A stretch of DNA of 48,609 nt from Oligoflexia bacterium (GTDB lineage: Bacteria; Bdellovibrionota; UBA1018): assembly GCA_903898645.1 (NCBI GenBank), contig CAIUGE010000109.1, positions 1 through 48,609 of the forward strand, given 5' to 3'. The notes under the pieces are model-generated. The model made no database searches and was not told where the DNA came from. It worked only from the letters and a program-made list of their open reading frames with translations. Shown here piece after piece: positions 40,030 through 47,902 of this stretch; position 1 is the first letter of the stretch; every line of letters begins with the position of its first letter. The position numbers and the translations under genes are program-made.

Positions 40030-42327
40030 ATGAAAAAAACAAAATCATCATGGACATTCATGGTTCTTTTTTTCCCCCTAGCTGGAGGACTCCTCACATT
40101 CATGCTTGCTGGATTTGCGTCGATTCATTTTTCAGAACCAAAAACTCTTTGGGGAGACCATACTTTTTTACTCATACAAGCAAAGAACATCCTGAGTCAT
40201 GGCTTCCTTTGGAGAAATAGCGACCTTGGTCGACCAGGCGAGTTCTTCATGTACGCTTTTCCACTTCCCGATATATCACAACAAGCTATTCTCTGGCTCT
40301 GTACATGCGCAACAAAAAACCCCTTCATTGCAACTAACGCCTACTACGTAATTATTATTCTTTTTTCCTATTGGTCCGCATTTTTCGCCTTATGGAAATT
40401 CTTTCGCAGTGTCGCCATTCCGCTGATTGGAGGCGTGCTATTTGTTTTTGTCCCCTATTTAGCAGTCCGATCTACCGGGCACGACTACCTTGCCGCCTAC
40501 TACTCCGCGCCCTGGGCATACATCATATGTATAACAATGGCTCAAAGCCAACCGTTACATAAGCTTGAAAAAAAATCCGTCATGCGGCACCTCGTATCGT
40601 TCATAGGAAAATGGGAAGTGCTTCTTGGCTCCGCGATCATTGGGTTATCAGGCGTATATTATCTTGCATTTGCACTGCTATTTTTTTGCATCTATTCTGT
40701 CGCTCTTGCTGGCACCGCACTTATGAAGCGCTCTCAATCATGGTTTATCCCAATACTACAAGGCGGCATGACAAGCGCCCTATGCTTAGGTTTTTTCTGC
40801 ACTGCCATGTACCCATCGTTTCAATTTCTCCAACACCAACATATCTCTCTCCCCCAAAGACTTGCGAGAGAACAACCAATCGTTGGAACCAAGATAGCAG
40901 ACCTATTGTGGACTATGGCACAGCACACTTCGCCAAGCAAAAAAATTACTGACTATATTACGTACCGATCAATCGCTGAGGGGTTTGATTTTTGGCCAGG
41001 AATTCTCCTTTCTATCTTTGCACTTGTAAGTATTATTTTCTATCCTCTCTGGTTTCAAGAACGTTCTGGTAGCGACAAAGAACAAAGCATCAAGGCAGTC
41101 GTAATTTTTATGATTTTTTCAATACTTTTTTCAACTCCACATGGGCTCGGACTTATTTTTAATACACTCATTACTCCAGCTATACGATCACAAGCACGAA
41201 TAAGTCCTTTTTTTACATTCGGCTCAATTTTAATCTTAGGGTATCAGCTGAGATGCATTTTCCATTTCTCTGATTGGAATGCTGGAAAGTCTCCTTTCAT
41301 TATAAGCAAAGAAGAACTAAAAGTAACATCTATTCTGCTTCTTTTTACACTGATAAATGCGTGGCCATATTTTGGATTTTACAAAGTGCACCAGCAGCAA
41401 CTTTTACGTAACGCAACCTACAAACAAGAAACTCGCAGTCTTCACAAGATGCTAGAAAAAATCCACGATAAAAAACTCCATCAGATCGCACAACTACCAA
41501 TTGCTCCCTGGCCAGAACCACCTCAGCAACTTCAGTTTGAACCATATGACCACTTCCTCCCTTACATCTATGATACGCTCCCGAGTCAAATAAGCTGGAG
41601 CTATGGATTAATGGCTCATGATACTCAATTTGCCGTCTTAAAACGCGCTAGCGACACCAAACAGCTCCCCCTATTGGCAGAAAACTTTTTGTGCTTAGGT
41701 TTTGATGGTTTACTTATCCAAAAAGCCGCCTACACTACTCCAGAACTCAACGCACTGAATGCCGCTTTTACAAAATCACATTTTGCTGACAATACATACG
41801 AAGACGACAACCGCCTTCTATTCTCCCTCCATCAAAGTACTGAGAGCAAAACATCGTGCATCACAAAACCAACAACGCTTAGAACGTGGCTACCAACCAA
41901 TAAAGACGGCTTGGGAGCAAACCTTTTATTCACTGGATGGGATGCACCCGAAGACTGGGGAACCTGGGGCATTGGACAAAAACAAAGTATCGCTATCTCT
42001 TTAGCATCAGAAAACCCCACCGATTTTGAGCTAGAAATAGATTTTTATATTATTGCAACACCCAAAGCGAAGCAAAGAAATATTACTCTATTGGCTTCAG
42101 GAAACCAAATAGGTCAATGGAAAATAGACCCCACTCATCCGGACGGAGTAAGAAGTGTCATCATCCCTCAGAGTGCCTTTCCAAAAAAGAATGGCCTCTT
42201 AATCATAGATCTTCTGAGTAACAAAACCATCTCACCTGCTGAAGCAGGAACGAATGCGGGCGATTTCAGACAACTCAGCATTGGTATCCGGCGCATCTGC
42301 ATTCGGCCTCAACTGACAAAGGCTTGA
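40030..42327 (+). CDS. Multipass membrane protein, GT-C-like, with C-terminal beta domain (long paralogue)
   Basis: A 765-aa protein. Residues 1-600 parallel the 604-aa protein at 22580-24394, including EPKTLWGDHTFLLI in the first periplasmic loop and STGHDYLAAYY. Residues from about 610 on add a domain absent from the paralogue: FTGWDAPEDWGTWGIG, then beta-strand-rich sequence ending SIGIRRICIRP. Short W-x-x-PE-x-WG-x-W motifs of this kind occur in jelly-roll-like modules attached to envelope glycosyltransferases. A GT-C role, periplasmic transfer from a polyprenyl-phosphate sugar, is inferred. The AAGGA ribosome binding site is 7 nt upstream. It lies on the plus strand, divergent from prfB. 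Confidence 0.62.
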   Translation: MKKTKSSWTFMVLFFPLAGGLLTFMLAGFASIHFSEPKTLWGDHTFLLIQAKNILSHGFLWRNSDLGRPGEFFMYAFPLPDISQQAILWLCTCATKNPFIATNAYYVIIILFSYWSAFFALWKFFRSVAIPLIGGVLFVFVPYLAVRSTGHDYLAAYYSAPWAYIICITMAQSQPLHKLEKKSVMRHLVSFIGKWEVLLGSAIIGLSGVYYLAFALLFFCIYSVALAGTALMKRSQSWFIPILQGGMTSALCLGFFCTAMYPSFQFLQHQHISLPQRLAREQPIVGTKIADLLWTMAQHTSPSKKITDYITYRSIAEGFDFWPGILLSIFALVSIIFYPLWFQERSGSDKEQSIKAVVIFMIFSILFSTPHGLGLIFNTLITPAIRSQARISPFFTFGSILILGYQLRCIFHFSDWNAGKSPFIISKEELKVTSILLLFTLINAWPYFGFYKVHQQQLLRNATYKQETRSLHKMLEKIHDKKLHQIAQLPIAPWPEPPQQLQFEPYDHFLPYIYDTLPSQISWSYGLMAHDTQFAVLKRASDTKQLPLLAENFLCLGFDGLLIQKAAYTTPELNALNAAFTKSHFADNTYEDDNRLLFSLHQSTESKTSCITKPTTLRTWLPTNKDGLGANLLFTGWDAPEDWGTWGIGQKQSIAISLASENPTDFELEIDFYIIATPKAKQRNITLLASGNQIGQWKIDPTHPDGVRSVIIPQSAFPKKNGLLIIDLLSNKTISPAEAGTNAGDFRQLSIGIRRICIRPQLTKA

Positions 42328-42601: not shown

Positions 42602-44281
42602 ATGAATATGCAAAATACAAAAAAAGAAGCCCCATGGAGCAAAACCCTAAAAATCATCGCTCTATGCGCACTAGCTCTAGCGTTTTTCTATCTCATGATG
42701 AGACCCTATTTGTTGTGCGGCTTTTATGATGACGATGCTCCAAATAGCTCGCAGGCAGCCTATCTCCGCCTGAATAAGATATCGTCTCTAGAATTTTTCC
42801 TGCACCACAACAGAGACTGGCTGAATCACTCCGGCAGAATATACCCAATAGCCCTTTTACAAGACATTTTCTTCAAGAACCTGAATTCACTCCGATTGTA
42901 CCGTGACGCTCACGTTTTCATGGTTTTTGTTAATCTGGCCTGTTTTTTTCTGACACTGAAGCAATGGGGCAGGAATATCTATTTTTCACTACTCGCAACA
43001 ATACTTGTCCTCACTCTCTTTCAAGCCAGAACCTACCACGACCCTATAACCTCATTTTGCGCACTCTTGCAAACAGTTTTTTTATTTGGGGCACTTTCGA
43101 TATATTATACCAATAAGTTTATTTCTAAAAATTCCATATGGTCCCTGTCGGCCTCAGCTTTATGCTACGCCTTTGTGCTCTTAACCTACGAAGTAGGCCT
43201 AAGCTTTCTGCCGGTTATTCTTGCAATACTCTATTTAAACACTACATCAAAAAAAGAATGCTTCTATGCATCATCTCCGTTTATTGTTATCACAGCCGCG
43301 TATTTAGGGGCCACGAAGTACTTTAGATTGCATTCAGGAATGAGTTACGACGCGATACAGCTTGGCTCTATAGCAAGATTTTTTAGCACTTTTAAATGCC
43401 AGGTTTTTGCGGCACTGCCATTAAATTTTTTCTTCAACATGAAGAACGAGCACTGGTTTAACTGGAAATCTTTCTCAGCGGACCTGGTCCACGGCAGAAG
43501 TATTGCTCTTTTTATAATTGGTTTTTGCCTGTTCTTTTTCGTTATCAACAAATTGCAACGTTCGTCACGAATTCCTAGCCAAGTTATCATGATATTTTCA
43601 GCGCTCATGCTTCTTATCCCTTCTATGTTTCCGGCCATCAGCAGAAAGTACCAGGTAGAACTCCGACCTGGACTAGGCTACCATCCCGTGTATCTAGCGT
43701 ATTTCGGCGTAGCAGCATTCATCGCATTACTAGTCTACATATGCATTCGACTTCTTGCGCATAGCAAGAACACCACTATCAACAAGATGATATGCTGCAT
43801 CTTTGCCGCTCTTTTCTCAGTAGTTGCTGTCATCAACGTCAATGTCAACTACATGGTTGTACGCGCCCAGAATCTTGGATGGATGGCAGAGCGCGTTGCA
43901 CTCGAGAAAGCCCTCCACAAGGGCCTGTTCTCCGAGATTAAGGACGATAGCATCATTATTTCAGATACGTCTTTTTATTGGCTAAATTCGGCATTCATAT
44001 TCGGCATAACAGGAAAGAGGCTGTATGTTATTGCAGAAAAAAGCAGCATCTTCCCGTTGCCGACAGGGCTAGCTGCGAACAAGCCTGACAACATAAACCC
44101 TTTAACAAATGCGCAATTTGAAAGTCCTTTTGAAATTCATTTCCAAAAAGGAAACGTATTTTTATTAGCTTTTAACAACCCAGAAACACAGACTCGATCG
44201 ATCTCTGTGTGCCCAATTACCAAAATGTCCCCTCAGTCTACATTTGAGACAGGCCCAAAGTGTTATGTTGCTTCAGATTAG
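42602..44281 (+). CDS. Multipass membrane protein, possible GT-C glycosyltransferase
   Basis: A 559-aa protein with a first hydrophobic helix (about 15-35) followed at once by FYDDDAPNSS in the first extracytoplasmic loop, the place of the catalytic acidic residue in GT-C enzymes. About nine or ten further hydrophobic segments follow, then a C-terminal soluble part of about 120 residues (from GWMAERVALEKALHKG). It is not closely similar to the other two GT-C-like proteins here. The ATG at 42602 has a weak ribosome binding site (GAAAG). A role in O-antigen or lipid glycosylation is inferred only from topology and neighbours. Confidence 0.5.
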   Translation: MNMQNTKKEAPWSKTLKIIALCALALAFFYLMMRPYLLCGFYDDDAPNSSQAAYLRLNKISSLEFFLHHNRDWLNHSGRIYPIALLQDIFFKNLNSLRLYRDAHVFMVFVNLACFFLTLKQWGRNIYFSLLATILVLTLFQARTYHDPITSFCALLQTVFLFGALSIYYTNKFISKNSIWSLSASALCYAFVLLTYEVGLSFLPVILAILYLNTTSKKECFYASSPFIVITAAYLGATKYFRLHSGMSYDAIQLGSIARFFSTFKCQVFAALPLNFFFNMKNEHWFNWKSFSADLVHGRSIALFIIGFCLFFFVINKLQRSSRIPSQVIMIFSALMLLIPSMFPAISRKYQVELRPGLGYHPVYLAYFGVAAFIALLVYICIRLLAHSKNTTINKMICCIFAALFSVVAVINVNVNYMVVRAQNLGWMAERVALEKALHKGLFSEIKDDSIIISDTSFYWLNSAFIFGITGKRLYVIAEKSSIFPLPTGLAANKPDNINPLTNAQFESPFEIHFQKGNVFLLAFNNPETQTRSISVCPITKMSPQSTFETGPKCYVASD

Positions 44282-44316: not shown

Positions 44317-44742
44317 TCACTCCACAAAACGACCGATCAAACCCTCTCCCACGAGCTTCTGCTCCCATCCTCGCATGACTCGAGCTTCCTTGAACCCCAG
44401 CTCATGATCAAATCCCAATAAGTGCAATATGCCATGCACTAAGAGGACATCCAGCTCCTGACGCACAGTATGGTGCTTCGCCTGTCTCACAAGCACCGTG
44501 TTACAAATTGCAAGCGACCCCAAAATCCCAAATGCCGACGGAAAGCTCAGCACATCCGTTGGCTGATCCTTGTTCCGCCATGTCCGGTTTAGTGTCTGCA
44601 TGCGGCGTGACCCAACAATGATCACATCAACAATCCATGGCCCTTGATACAAACACCCCAAAGCAGGGTAAGCCTGCATCTTTTTTACCCAGAAAATGAT
44701 TCTTTTTTCAGCGACTTGCTGCAGATCTTTACATAGATACAT
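44317..44742 (-). CDS. ybeY: Endoribonuclease YbeY
   Basis: A 141-aa zinc-dependent RNase needed for 16S rRNA 3' end maturation and ribosome quality control. The metal site is HGILHLLGFDHE, the HxxxHxxxxxH motif of the family; TDVLSFPSAFGILGSLAIC is the other typical block. Start ATG 44742 has a GAGGAG ribosome binding site 6 nt upstream, while the frame's further extension to 44856 overlaps the coding start of the divergent mazG-coaE and is rejected. It ends 35 bp from the convergent membrane gene. Its promoter must lie within the mazG end of the divergent neighbour. Confidence 0.92.
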   Translation of the reverse strand: MYLCKDLQQVAEKRIIFWVKKMQAYPALGCLYQGPWIVDVIIVGSRRMQTLNRTWRNKDQPTDVLSFPSAFGILGSLAICNTVLVRQAKHHTVRQELDVLLVHGILHLLGFDHELGFKEARVMRGWEQKLVGEGLIGRFVE

Positions 44743-44758
44743 GGCATACTCCTCGGCA

Positions 44759-46045
44759 ATGGAACATAGTCTTTTAAAAACAATTGCACAACTCCGTGCA
44801 CCAGGCGGATGCCCTTGGGACCGAAAACAAACCCATGCATCCTTACGTCCATACATTATTGAAGAAGCCTACGAGCTCCTCGATGTGCTCGATGAGGAAG
44901 CGCAAGGAAGACGCAACGATGAAGCCCTCCAAGAAGAGCTCGGTGACGTCCTCATGCAGGTACTCCTGCATGCCGCTATAGCCGAAGAAGAAGGTCGTTT
45001 CTCTTTCCTGGATATTGCCCGCACATTGAACGAAAAACTCATCCGGCGCCATCCTCACGTCTTTGGCGAGCTCAAAGCGACAAATGCTGACGAGGTAGGC
45101 GAGATCTGGGAAAAACAAAAAAAAGCGGAAAAAAAAACGACACTCGCAACTTCTCTGTCAGGCGTACCACGTCATCTACCAGCACTTCTTCGTGCCGGCC
45201 GTATGCTTGAAAAAACTGCACATGCAGGCTACATGCCCCCATCCGATTCACTCATGAAAATTGAAGAAGAACTCGGCGAGGTTCGTGCAGAACTCGCTCA
45301 AAACAATCATGCTGGCCTCACGCATGAAATTGGAGACCTCCTCTTCAGTGTCTGCAACCTCGCCCACGCAGTCAAAGTGCCCCCCGAAGATGCTCTTCGT
45401 CAAACACTGGCACGCTTCCATAAACGTATGACTCATATAGAGCGCGTCAAAGATCAACAAAATGCATGGGAAATATGGAAAAAGATCGAAAAACTGACTA
45501 TCTGGGGTATCACAGGCCCCATAGCTTCAGGCAAATCCCACTTCAGTAGCTGGCTTACACGCGATGGCTACCAAGTACTTCGAGCTGATTCAATTGGTCA
45601 CGATCTCCTCGCGCAACCTGAGCAGCAAGACTTTCTGATGCAGCATTTTGGCACTCAGGATCGCAGCATACTCCGTGAACGCATCGCCCACGACCCTCAA
45701 GCACGCAGCCTCCTCGAATCATGGATGCATCCACGTATTTATACAGAAACTACCCGCCGCTTAGCAGAACTTACAGGCGTAGTCTTCTATGAAAGCGCCC
45801 TTTTACCCTATGTACCCGACTTACTCCCTTTTGCCGGCATTATTCTGATGACAGCAACTCCTGAGATCCGCAAAAAAAGACTTATTGCACGTGATGGCTC
45901 AGCCTCTCAAGCTCTTTTTGACGCACAGCCATCAAGTGAAGCCTATGCACGCATTGCACATACCACAATTGACACATCTGCAGAACTACAAGAATCCCAC
46001 TATAAGGCTTTTCTTGACTCGTGCATTGTATCTCGATTGCAATAA
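44759..46045 (+). CDS. MazG-CoaE fusion: nucleotide pyrophosphohydrolase and dephospho-CoA kinase
   Basis: One uninterrupted 428-aa frame joins two enzymes. Residues 1-245 are a full two-repeat MazG: LRAPGGCPWDRKQTHASL, metal-binding EEAYE at 35-39 and EELGD at 59-63, second repeat EEELGE and HEIGD at about 169-193. MazG hydrolyses nucleoside triphosphates to monophosphates. Right after NAWEIWKKIEKL begins a dephospho-CoA kinase with P-loop GPIASGKS at 253-260, RADSIGHDLL, ILRERIAHDP, MHPRIY and the RKKRLIARDG lid region. CoaE makes CoA, the last step of its synthesis. ATG 44759 is chosen because it matches the MazG N-terminus; ATG 44741 is possible. No clear ribosome binding site. It is divergent from ybeY, 16 bp apart. 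Confidence 0.88.
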   Translation: MEHSLLKTIAQLRAPGGCPWDRKQTHASLRPYIIEEAYELLDVLDEEAQGRRNDEALQEELGDVLMQVLLHAAIAEEEGRFSFLDIARTLNEKLIRRHPHVFGELKATNADEVGEIWEKQKKAEKKTTLATSLSGVPRHLPALLRAGRMLEKTAHAGYMPPSDSLMKIEEELGEVRAELAQNNHAGLTHEIGDLLFSVCNLAHAVKVPPEDALRQTLARFHKRMTHIERVKDQQNAWEIWKKIEKLTIWGITGPIASGKSHFSSWLTRDGYQVLRADSIGHDLLAQPEQQDFLMQHFGTQDRSILRERIAHDPQARSLLESWMHPRIYTETTRRLAELTGVVFYESALLPYVPDLLPFAGIILMTATPEIRKKRLIARDGSASQALFDAQPSSEAYARIAHTTIDTSAELQESHYKAFLDSCIVSRLQ

Positions 46046-46070
46046 TGCTACATCCCCAACAGGAGATCTC

Positions 46071-46868
46071 ATGTTCTTACTACTCATACTGCTCACAGGA
46101 TGCAATCTCACAGGCTTCATCGATCAGCCCTCAAATAATGACCAGTATCTATCAAAGGCTCAAGCATGTATCGATGCTGGCAATTTAGCCTGCGCAACAC
46201 ACTACTACGGAATAGCATCGACAACAGACAACATCATCATGGGACGCATATATACGGCACTTGCTACAGTAGGCATCACAGAATATGCATTCCTCGAAGC
46301 AACAATGAATCATGGAAATAGCATAGGGAGCCTCATCACAAACCTTGCTAACACTATAGGCTCAAAAGGCACTGCAACAACACGACTCAACCTCGTAAAA
46401 ACCTACTCCCAGTATACCAAAATATCTAATCAAACCCGCGAAGGTTTTGCTCGCTTCATCATGGCTCTTGGCATACTCAGTAACCTTTTAGCAGAAATCT
46501 CATCATCGCCTGGCAATCTGAAACAATCAGATCTTGTCACCAACCCCTCTTTATGCCTCACAGCACTGAACGCACTCAATGCTATAAACATCAATAGCTA
46601 CTGCGCAGGTCCATCTCACAGCAACCTCATCGTAGGCACATCTATCACAAGTATATCGACTAGCGAATTTCAAGGAGTTCCAACACTGTTTATGATCAAT
46701 ACCGCAATTACTGAACTTGAAATTGCCCTGAGCATTATTGGCTCATTCGGATCCCTCGGCTCTCAAAGCACAAGCTTTGTCAACATTTTGTCCACAGCTG
46801 CATCATCCATAACAACCGATGACGCAACCTATCGCGGCGCACTCATTAAAAACGGGATAGGCATATGA
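46071..46868 (+). CDS. Predicted lipoprotein (265 aa), TPR-like start
   Basis: MFLLLILLTGCNLTG gives a very short signal with a clean lipobox (LTGC). The ATG at 46071 follows AGGAGA by 4 nt; the frame runs back into coaE but that extension is not needed. After the Cys, residues YLSKAQACIDAGNLACATHYYG look like one TPR-type helix pair. The remainder is a helical Ala/Ile/Ser-rich sequence without a recognised family. It ends with a 4-nt ATGA overlap with the outer-membrane protein gene, so the two are probably made together. Confidence 0.75.
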   Translation: MFLLLILLTGCNLTGFIDQPSNNDQYLSKAQACIDAGNLACATHYYGIASTTDNIIMGRIYTALATVGITEYAFLEATMNHGNSIGSLITNLANTIGSKGTATTRLNLVKTYSQYTKISNQTREGFARFIMALGILSNLLAEISSSPGNLKQSDLVTNPSLCLTALNALNAININSYCAGPSHSNLIVGTSITSISTSEFQGVPTLFMINTAITELEIALSIIGSFGSLGSQSTSFVNILSTAASSITTDDATYRGALIKNGIGI

Positions 46869-47902
46869 TTCTTTTCCTTATAACTATTGCCCAAGCAGAA
46901 ATTTTGCGTCCCTTCAGCAGTGCTCGTAGCGCTGGCCAAGGGAGCGTCATCATCACAACTGGCCTCTATGAAGAAAACTTCTATTATAATCCAGCGCGCG
47001 TCCTTGCAAACCCAGAATCACGCTTCACCCTCATACAAATTGCGCCTGACATCTCAACAACAACACTCACAGATAGTCATGCTATCTCAGGCTCCCCTTC
47101 ACCCAAAACAATCCTCTCGTTGCTCGGCCACTACGAGCATGCTCGTATACAGACAACATTACCAAGCTACTACTATGTAGGCGAACAATGGGCCATGGCA
47201 ATCGGGCTCCTCGCAAGTGGCGAAGTTAACGGATCACTGCACAATTCTTATGCAATTGATGGCGTTGGCCTTGGGGATGCCGCTTTCGCATTGAGCTTTG
47301 CGCATAAACTCCTTCACGACCAGGCAAGACTTGGAGTCAACATCAGGTATAACGGTCGTATGCTTTTTTCCGATAAAGTCGAGGCAACCGATTATTTCAG
47401 CGGCCAATCACTCAGTGCCCTTGGCTCAAAAACCTTTACTGGACTCCTTGATGCAGATATCGGAGCCACTGCTATCATCACCTCCTTCAACGACTGGGAA
47501 TTGACAGGAGCCCTCGTCCTATCCGACATCCTTGCACCACCCCTCAACAAATCACTTCCTACAAGTCAACCTTTTTCTACCAGCATGGGAGTCGCCTTGC
47601 GCCATGAACCAACACTTATCCGCGCCCTTCATGCCACCACCTTCGCAGTTGAACTACGCGATATCGGCAACAACGGCTCAGGCAGCTTCTTTCGGCTCCT
47701 TCATTTCGGAGCAGAGACGCATGTCTGGAATAAGCATATTGCATTCCGAGCTGGCATCAATCAAGGCTACCTCACAGCAGGCATCGGCCTTTCACTCTTG
47801 CCCTTGACTATTGACATCGCGACCTATGGTGAAGAAATAGCACTCAATACCGGCACCCAAGAAGACAGGCGCATTATGTTCAGTCTCGGTCTCCATATTT
47901 AA
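46865..47902 (+). CDS. Predicted outer-membrane beta-barrel protein
   Basis: A 345-aa protein with a short N-terminal signal (MILFLITIAQA, cleaved near AQA). YEENFYYNPARVLANPESRF carries the YNPA motif seen near the start of PorV/TraF-like and FadL-like barrels. The rest alternates short amphipathic strands with turns and ends in an aromatic/hydrophobic strand (RRIMFSLGLHI), as barrels do for insertion by BamA. It overlaps the lipoprotein gene by 4 nt and is followed after 44 bp by another lipoprotein. A transport or secretion-accessory role is inferred only. Confidence 0.7.
   Translation: MILFLITIAQAEILRPFSSARSAGQGSVIITTGLYEENFYYNPARVLANPESRFTLIQIAPDISTTTLTDSHAISGSPSPKTILSLLGHYEHARIQTTLPSYYYVGEQWAMAIGLLASGEVNGSLHNSYAIDGVGLGDAAFALSFAHKLLHDQARLGVNIRYNGRMLFSDKVEATDYFSGQSLSALGSKTFTGLLDADIGATAIITSFNDWELTGALVLSDILAPPLNKSLPTSQPFSTSMGVALRHEPTLIRALHATTFAVELRDIGNNGSGSFFRLLHFGAETHVWNKHIAFRAGINQGYLTAGIGLSLLPLTIDIATYGEEIALNTGTQEDRRIMFSLGLHI

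Follow-up and report, generated by a model that had tools for sequence, protein, structure and literature searches.

Does the open frame in which MazG runs directly into the dephospho-CoA kinase CoaE (DPCK) encode a real fusion protein, and if it does, how did the fusion arise and what might it be for? The gene lies in a window of 48,609 nucleotides from an Oligoflexia bacterium, by which is meant the whole stretch of DNA that was analysed. The genome to which it belongs, G000, comprises 2.02 Mb in 118 contigs and is 97.6% complete.

One frame, two enzyme domains

The gene is read as a single stop-free frame from its ATG to the end of its stop codon, and an in-frame ATG further upstream offers a longer alternative protein (Table 1). 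A Pfam scan of the shorter form finds MazG twice and then CoaE. The score for PF03819 is 116.6 bits (E 5.9e-34; cut-off 22), and that for PF01121 is 68.3 bits over residues 248-411 (E 9e-19; cut-off 27). These results confirm what had been proposed in the sequence-only reading, namely that MazG and CoaE share one frame. The MazG half also exceeds the NCBIfam cut-offs of TIGR00444 (224.4 against 148.3) and PRK09562 (244.3 against 208). The CoaE half, which the same reading called complete-looking, is indeed of full length but is very divergent, given that it scores 58.7 bits with the TIGR00152 equivalog model, under the cut-off of 65.55; the same model gives 109-144 bits with four fused relatives. 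In a profile search of the whole genome, no CoaE or MazG match was found outside the fusion frame, such that both genes are present as single copies and no second intact copy of either casts doubt on the fused one. A sigma-70 scan detected no promoter-like site near the gene.

Table 1. Coordinates of the fused gene, its parts and its divergent neighbour in the window
Feature	Position	Strand	Evidence
mazG-coaE fusion gene, 428 aa (449 aa with the ATG at 44696)	44759..46045	+	open frame; Pfam domains; eight fused relatives
First MazG repeat, metal-site motif EE35-36..E39...EE59-60..D63	44828..45064	+	PF03819 1.7e-26; residues invariant in nine fused proteins
Second MazG repeat, EE170-171..E174...E190..D193 kept	45257..45436	+	PF03819 8.1e-8; alignment of nine fused proteins
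Last MazG helix, residues 233-244, invariant W237 and K241	45455..45490	+	AlphaFold secondary structure; invariant columns
Two-residue MazG/CoaE linker, residues 245-246	45491..45496	+	AlphaFold model; same in relative G026
CoaE domain, residues 247-428	45497..46042	+	Pfam; alignments of relatives
ybeY, divergent neighbour	44317..44742	-	TIGR00043 93.2 bits; conserved beside mazG-coaE in relatives examined

The metal-site pattern ExxE...ExxD is present in both MazG repeats, and its residues (E36, E39, E60 and D63 in the first, E171, E174, E190 and D193 in the second) are invariant among the nine fused proteins. Twelve of the 75 near-invariant MazG positions are changed in G000. Several of these precede the second repeat, where near-invariant columns 153-164 are altered and a VGFQW-like motif is replaced by AGYMPPSD.

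The fused protein is predicted by AlphaFold (73 rows) with a pLDDT of 93.4 and a pTM of 0.81. In the model, two residues lie between the end of the last MazG helix and the opening strand of CoaE (residues 247-252), in keeping with the earlier remark that there is almost no linker. The fused protein of the relative G026 is predicted with the same layout, at a pLDDT of 94.8 and a pTM of 0.83, and Foldseek places E. coli MazG (3cra) and many solved dephospho-CoA kinases among its best matches. Judged from pTM alone, the models suggest a near-rigid junction with a defined orientation of the two domains.

Distribution and origin of the fusion

The search was extended to the order, for which 55 genomes including G000 were used, and a stop-free mazG-coaE fusion is present in nine of them. 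Eight belong to one family (G000, G010, G011, G012, G016, G017, G026 and G034) and the ninth, G037, to another. Where else the architecture might occur had been left to later work, and these eight further genomes of the same order now provide the list. In 35 other members of the order, mazG and coaE are separate but adjacent on one strand, and 23 of the 35 pairs have a possible CoaE start in a 4-nt overlap with the MazG stop, either ATGA or GTGA. The two genes lie on opposite strands only in G040 and G044. In G025, G030, G032 and G049 (loci L014, L019, L011 and L017, respectively), mazG and coaE share a reading frame and are divided by one stop, and these four genomes are candidate stages before or after fusion.

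Beyond the order, the 4-nt overlap is also found in three genomes (G064, G071 and G078) of f15, another family of the phylum. A search of 369 genomes of the phylum gave, among the matches listed, stop-free full-length ones in this order only, together with a full-length match interrupted by a single TAA in G210, which lies outside the order. No other MazG-CoaE frame was present among the best 80 relatives from GTDB species genomes, a ranking led by similarity to MazG.

Could an assembly or sequencing error have merged two neighbouring genes? The adjacency of separate mazG and coaE genes in most relatives would be in its favour. However, an uninterrupted fusion of the same kind, 39-44% identical in sequence, is present in eight other genomes that were assembled independently, which rules out a read-level frame error as well as a chance overlap. 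In addition, the usual MazG tail and the start Met of CoaE are both missing, which is beyond what a mere frameshift would cause. The chance of an artefact is negligible.

The neighbourhood of the gene is well conserved. Among 23 loci examined, ybeY is found beside mazG-coaE in all 23 and prfB in 22, both in divergent orientation, and prfB lies near ybeY in the relatives examined. Members of two further gene families occur nearby in 18 of the 23, mostly directly downstream. As the fused gene sits at this ancestral position, its origin is most simply explained by joining in situ. Moreover, with 35 adjacent separate pairs in the order, 23 of which may overlap, the evidence points to an ancestral, mostly overlapping mazG-coaE pair that became a fusion in some lineages. 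This is a simpler account than the purpose that the sequence-only reading put forward as a possibility, in which clean-up of (p)ppGpp or damaged NTPs would be tied to CoA synthesis.

Whether this happened once or several times was addressed with phylogenies. When fusion is mapped onto the RpoB tree, five changes are required, and the AU test rejects a tree in which all fused genomes form one clade (p 0.0005). The gene trees give a weaker verdict: with the full MazG plus CoaE tree, a short alignment, a single fused clade is not rejected (p 0.17), and with the long branches removed it is borderline (p 0.042). In the latter tree, the fused G017 clusters with the unfused G005 (96/92). A single vertical origin is therefore disfavoured. 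Repeated fusion within the order is favoured, and a single fusion event with later transfer or splitting is a less favoured alternative. In seven of the nine fusions, exactly four residues separate the last E-K/R of MazG from the G-L/I-T-G of CoaE. The shortest native CoaE starts (e.g. MKRI-GLTGG) are equally long, such that uniform junctions are as expected from the joining of minimal forms.

CoA pathway and possible roles of the fusion

Profile searches of G000 did not find CoaD (TIGR01510), which is present in 53 of the 54 other members of the order and absent only from G022, a genome that is 71% complete. CoaB (PF04127) and the type III pantothenate kinase CoaX (PF03309) were likewise not found in G000, type III being the pantothenate kinase that the search covered; several relatives that have CoaD are also without CoaB and CoaX matches. 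A broad search with PF01467 returned three proteins from G000, to which NCBIfam gives the names HldE-type, NadD and RibF. The HldE-type match is a 183-aa frame (L264, positions 1342-1893 of contig C80) that corresponds to just the adenylyltransferase half of HldE (TIGR02199, 198 bits). CoaE thus seems to be the sole CoA biosynthesis enzyme found in G000, with CoaX, CoaBC and CoaD not found, although their absence could be an assembly gap, given the 118 contigs and the completeness of 97.6%.

Loss of CoaX and CoaB was considered as a correlate of fusion, and no clear link emerges, since both states occur among fused genomes: both genes are kept in G010, G011, G017, G026 and G034 and lacking in G000, G012, G016 and G037. 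Across the order as a whole, CoaX and CoaB are patchily missing and CoaD is nearly universal, which suggests repeated phosphopantetheine salvage, for example in G012, G016 and G037. Genomes with DPCK as the only enzyme of the pathway, for which salvage of dephospho-CoA has been proposed, are described from mycoplasmas, Rickettsia, Chlamydia and Holospora (PMC8721197, PMC5911502). A bacterial importer of dephospho-CoA is described as not yet identified (PMC8721197).

The explanation that we prefer, and regard as fairly probable, is that an adjacent, overlapping mazG-coaE pair was joined in frame, probably repeatedly in this order of the Bdellovibrionota, to give a bifunctional MazG-CoaE salvage enzyme. 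Going by family membership, the two-repeat MazG half would convert NTPs to NMP and PPi, and the CoaE half would phosphorylate dephospho-CoA. Joining would fix the two activities at a 1:1 ratio and place CoaE on the MazG dimer, presumably with no channelling of a shared intermediate. As CoaX, CoaBC and CoaD are not found in G000, CoaE may act as a salvage step on dephospho-CoA from outside, be it from prey, host or neighbours, which suggests an organism that lives on a scavenged CoA precursor.

How well the kinase half is preserved bears directly on this proposal. CoaE of G000 retains a P-loop, GPIASGKS, that fits GxxxxGK[ST], with K259 and S260, as well as the catalytic D277, H324-P325, R374, R378 and Q390, the Arg and Gln of the lid among them. 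Nevertheless, only 26 of 38 near-invariant positions are kept and 12 are lost, whereas the other members of the order that were examined keep at least 32 of the 38, with the next lowest having lost 6. The changes include DAD to RAD, by which DXD loses its first Asp, LLVETGR to LLPYVPD, and a shortened lid. The Arg of DADQISRE aligns with a His, such that the DXD motif with its following Arg is not intact. For CoaE of Mycobacterium tuberculosis, roles in catalysis and phosphate binding are ascribed to Arg36 and the DXD motif (PMC2765170). Given the number of positions lost and the score below the TIGR00152 cut-off, the kinase activity of this half may be weak, changed or lost.

The fusion could accordingly be real and its CoaE half decaying, in a cell for which CoA itself or some other source suffices, from which the upstream genes are gone and in which MazG alone works. 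We hold this to be rather unlikely. In addition to the lost motifs, the sub-threshold score and the missing CoaX, CoaBC and CoaD, it is consistent with how far this CoaE has diverged: its mean identity is the lowest among the family members compared, and its loss of near-invariant positions is the greatest in the order. However, placed on the RpoB topology, the branch to G000 is 3.2 times the median tip for RpoB, 5.0 times for MazG and 4.7 times for CoaE; because MazG is affected to a similar degree, part of the divergence reflects a generally fast rate. The 188 CoaE codons contain neither a stop nor a frameshift, whereas about 24 stops would be expected at 2.3 replacements per site, on the assumption that the entire branch was unselected. 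The open frame over so long a branch, together with the retained catalytic core, argues against long neutral decay, and the AlphaFold model of the protein folds with high confidence.

A somewhat better prospect, though still short of the bifunctional enzyme, is that an operon pair was joined neutrally, with halves that act independently and gain nothing from their union. This alternative is compatible with the bifunctional salvage enzyme as to origin and activities and differs from it in the effect ascribed to joining. A single indel suffices to fuse overlapping stop/start pairs, fused members lie dispersed on the RpoB tree among unfused sisters, and the two reactions have no direct metabolite in common. 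The minimal, uniform joint speaks against it, as does the high pTM of both models, which suggests a defined orientation. At the other extreme, coupling could be regulatory, with the quality or supply of NTPs as sensed by MazG setting the formation of CoA from scavenged dephospho-CoA once the other CoA steps were lost. The route would be the MazG helix with W237 and K241, which runs straight into the first CoaE strand and the P-loop. By our own count, these two residues align with what we take to be nucleotide contacts of E. coli MazG. We consider such coupling improbable, more so than decay of CoaE.

Known parallels and neighbouring genes

The nearest known parallel to MazG-CoaE is the HAD-DPCK protein of mycoplasmas, which likewise consists of an N-terminal hydrolase and a C-terminal DPCK in about 445 aa; it occurs mostly in genomes with DPCK as the only CoA enzyme, and salvage of dephospho-CoA has been proposed for it (PMC8721197). 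It differs in having a Cof-type HAD hydrolase as partner, in place of MazG, and in coming from unrelated bacteria. CoaE of mycobacteria also shares its chain with another domain (PMC2765170; PDB 6n39), but this UPF0157 domain is C-terminal and helps CoaE to fold, whereas the MazG partner is N-terminal and has catalytic residues of its own. In eukaryotic COASY (2f6r), DPCK is similarly the C-terminal part of a bifunctional protein, with the difference that its partner PPAT, which has CoaD activity, catalyses the step just before it in CoA synthesis. E. coli MazG (3cra) has the same two repeats and stands alone. The two-repeat MazG of YabN (NF052436) is also joined to another enzyme, in that case an N-terminal methyltransferase rather than a C-terminal kinase.

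No description of a MazG-CoaE fusion was found in the literature searched, a scope that leaves out most subscription journals and makes this weak evidence of novelty; the sequence-only reading did not know the pairing from established annotation, and nothing met in that search contradicts it. The match that names both 'dephospho-CoA kinase' and MazG is a study of gene transfer agents. MazG-CoaE is a real and apparently undescribed domain fusion, to be placed beside HAD-DPCK and CoaE-UPF0157. MazG would then be a second hydrolase joined to DPCK where DPCK seems to be the sole CoA enzyme. In addition, the order offers a natural series of overlapping genes, in-frame neighbours with one stop and full fusions. 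If salvage of dephospho-CoA is true, the organism would be a good place to seek the bacterial importer, and the presence of CoaE with the remaining pathway not found may outweigh the fusion itself in importance.

Two membrane-protein-like frames without Pfam matches, at 40030-42327 and 42602-44281 (+), lie between prfB and ybeY in the window and were probably inserted locally in this lineage. Just 3' of the fusion are two frames at 45987-46868 and 46865-47902 (+), also without Pfam matches, whose homologues are those found in 18 of the 23 loci, mostly right behind mazG-coaE; the second has a signal-peptide-like stretch at its start.
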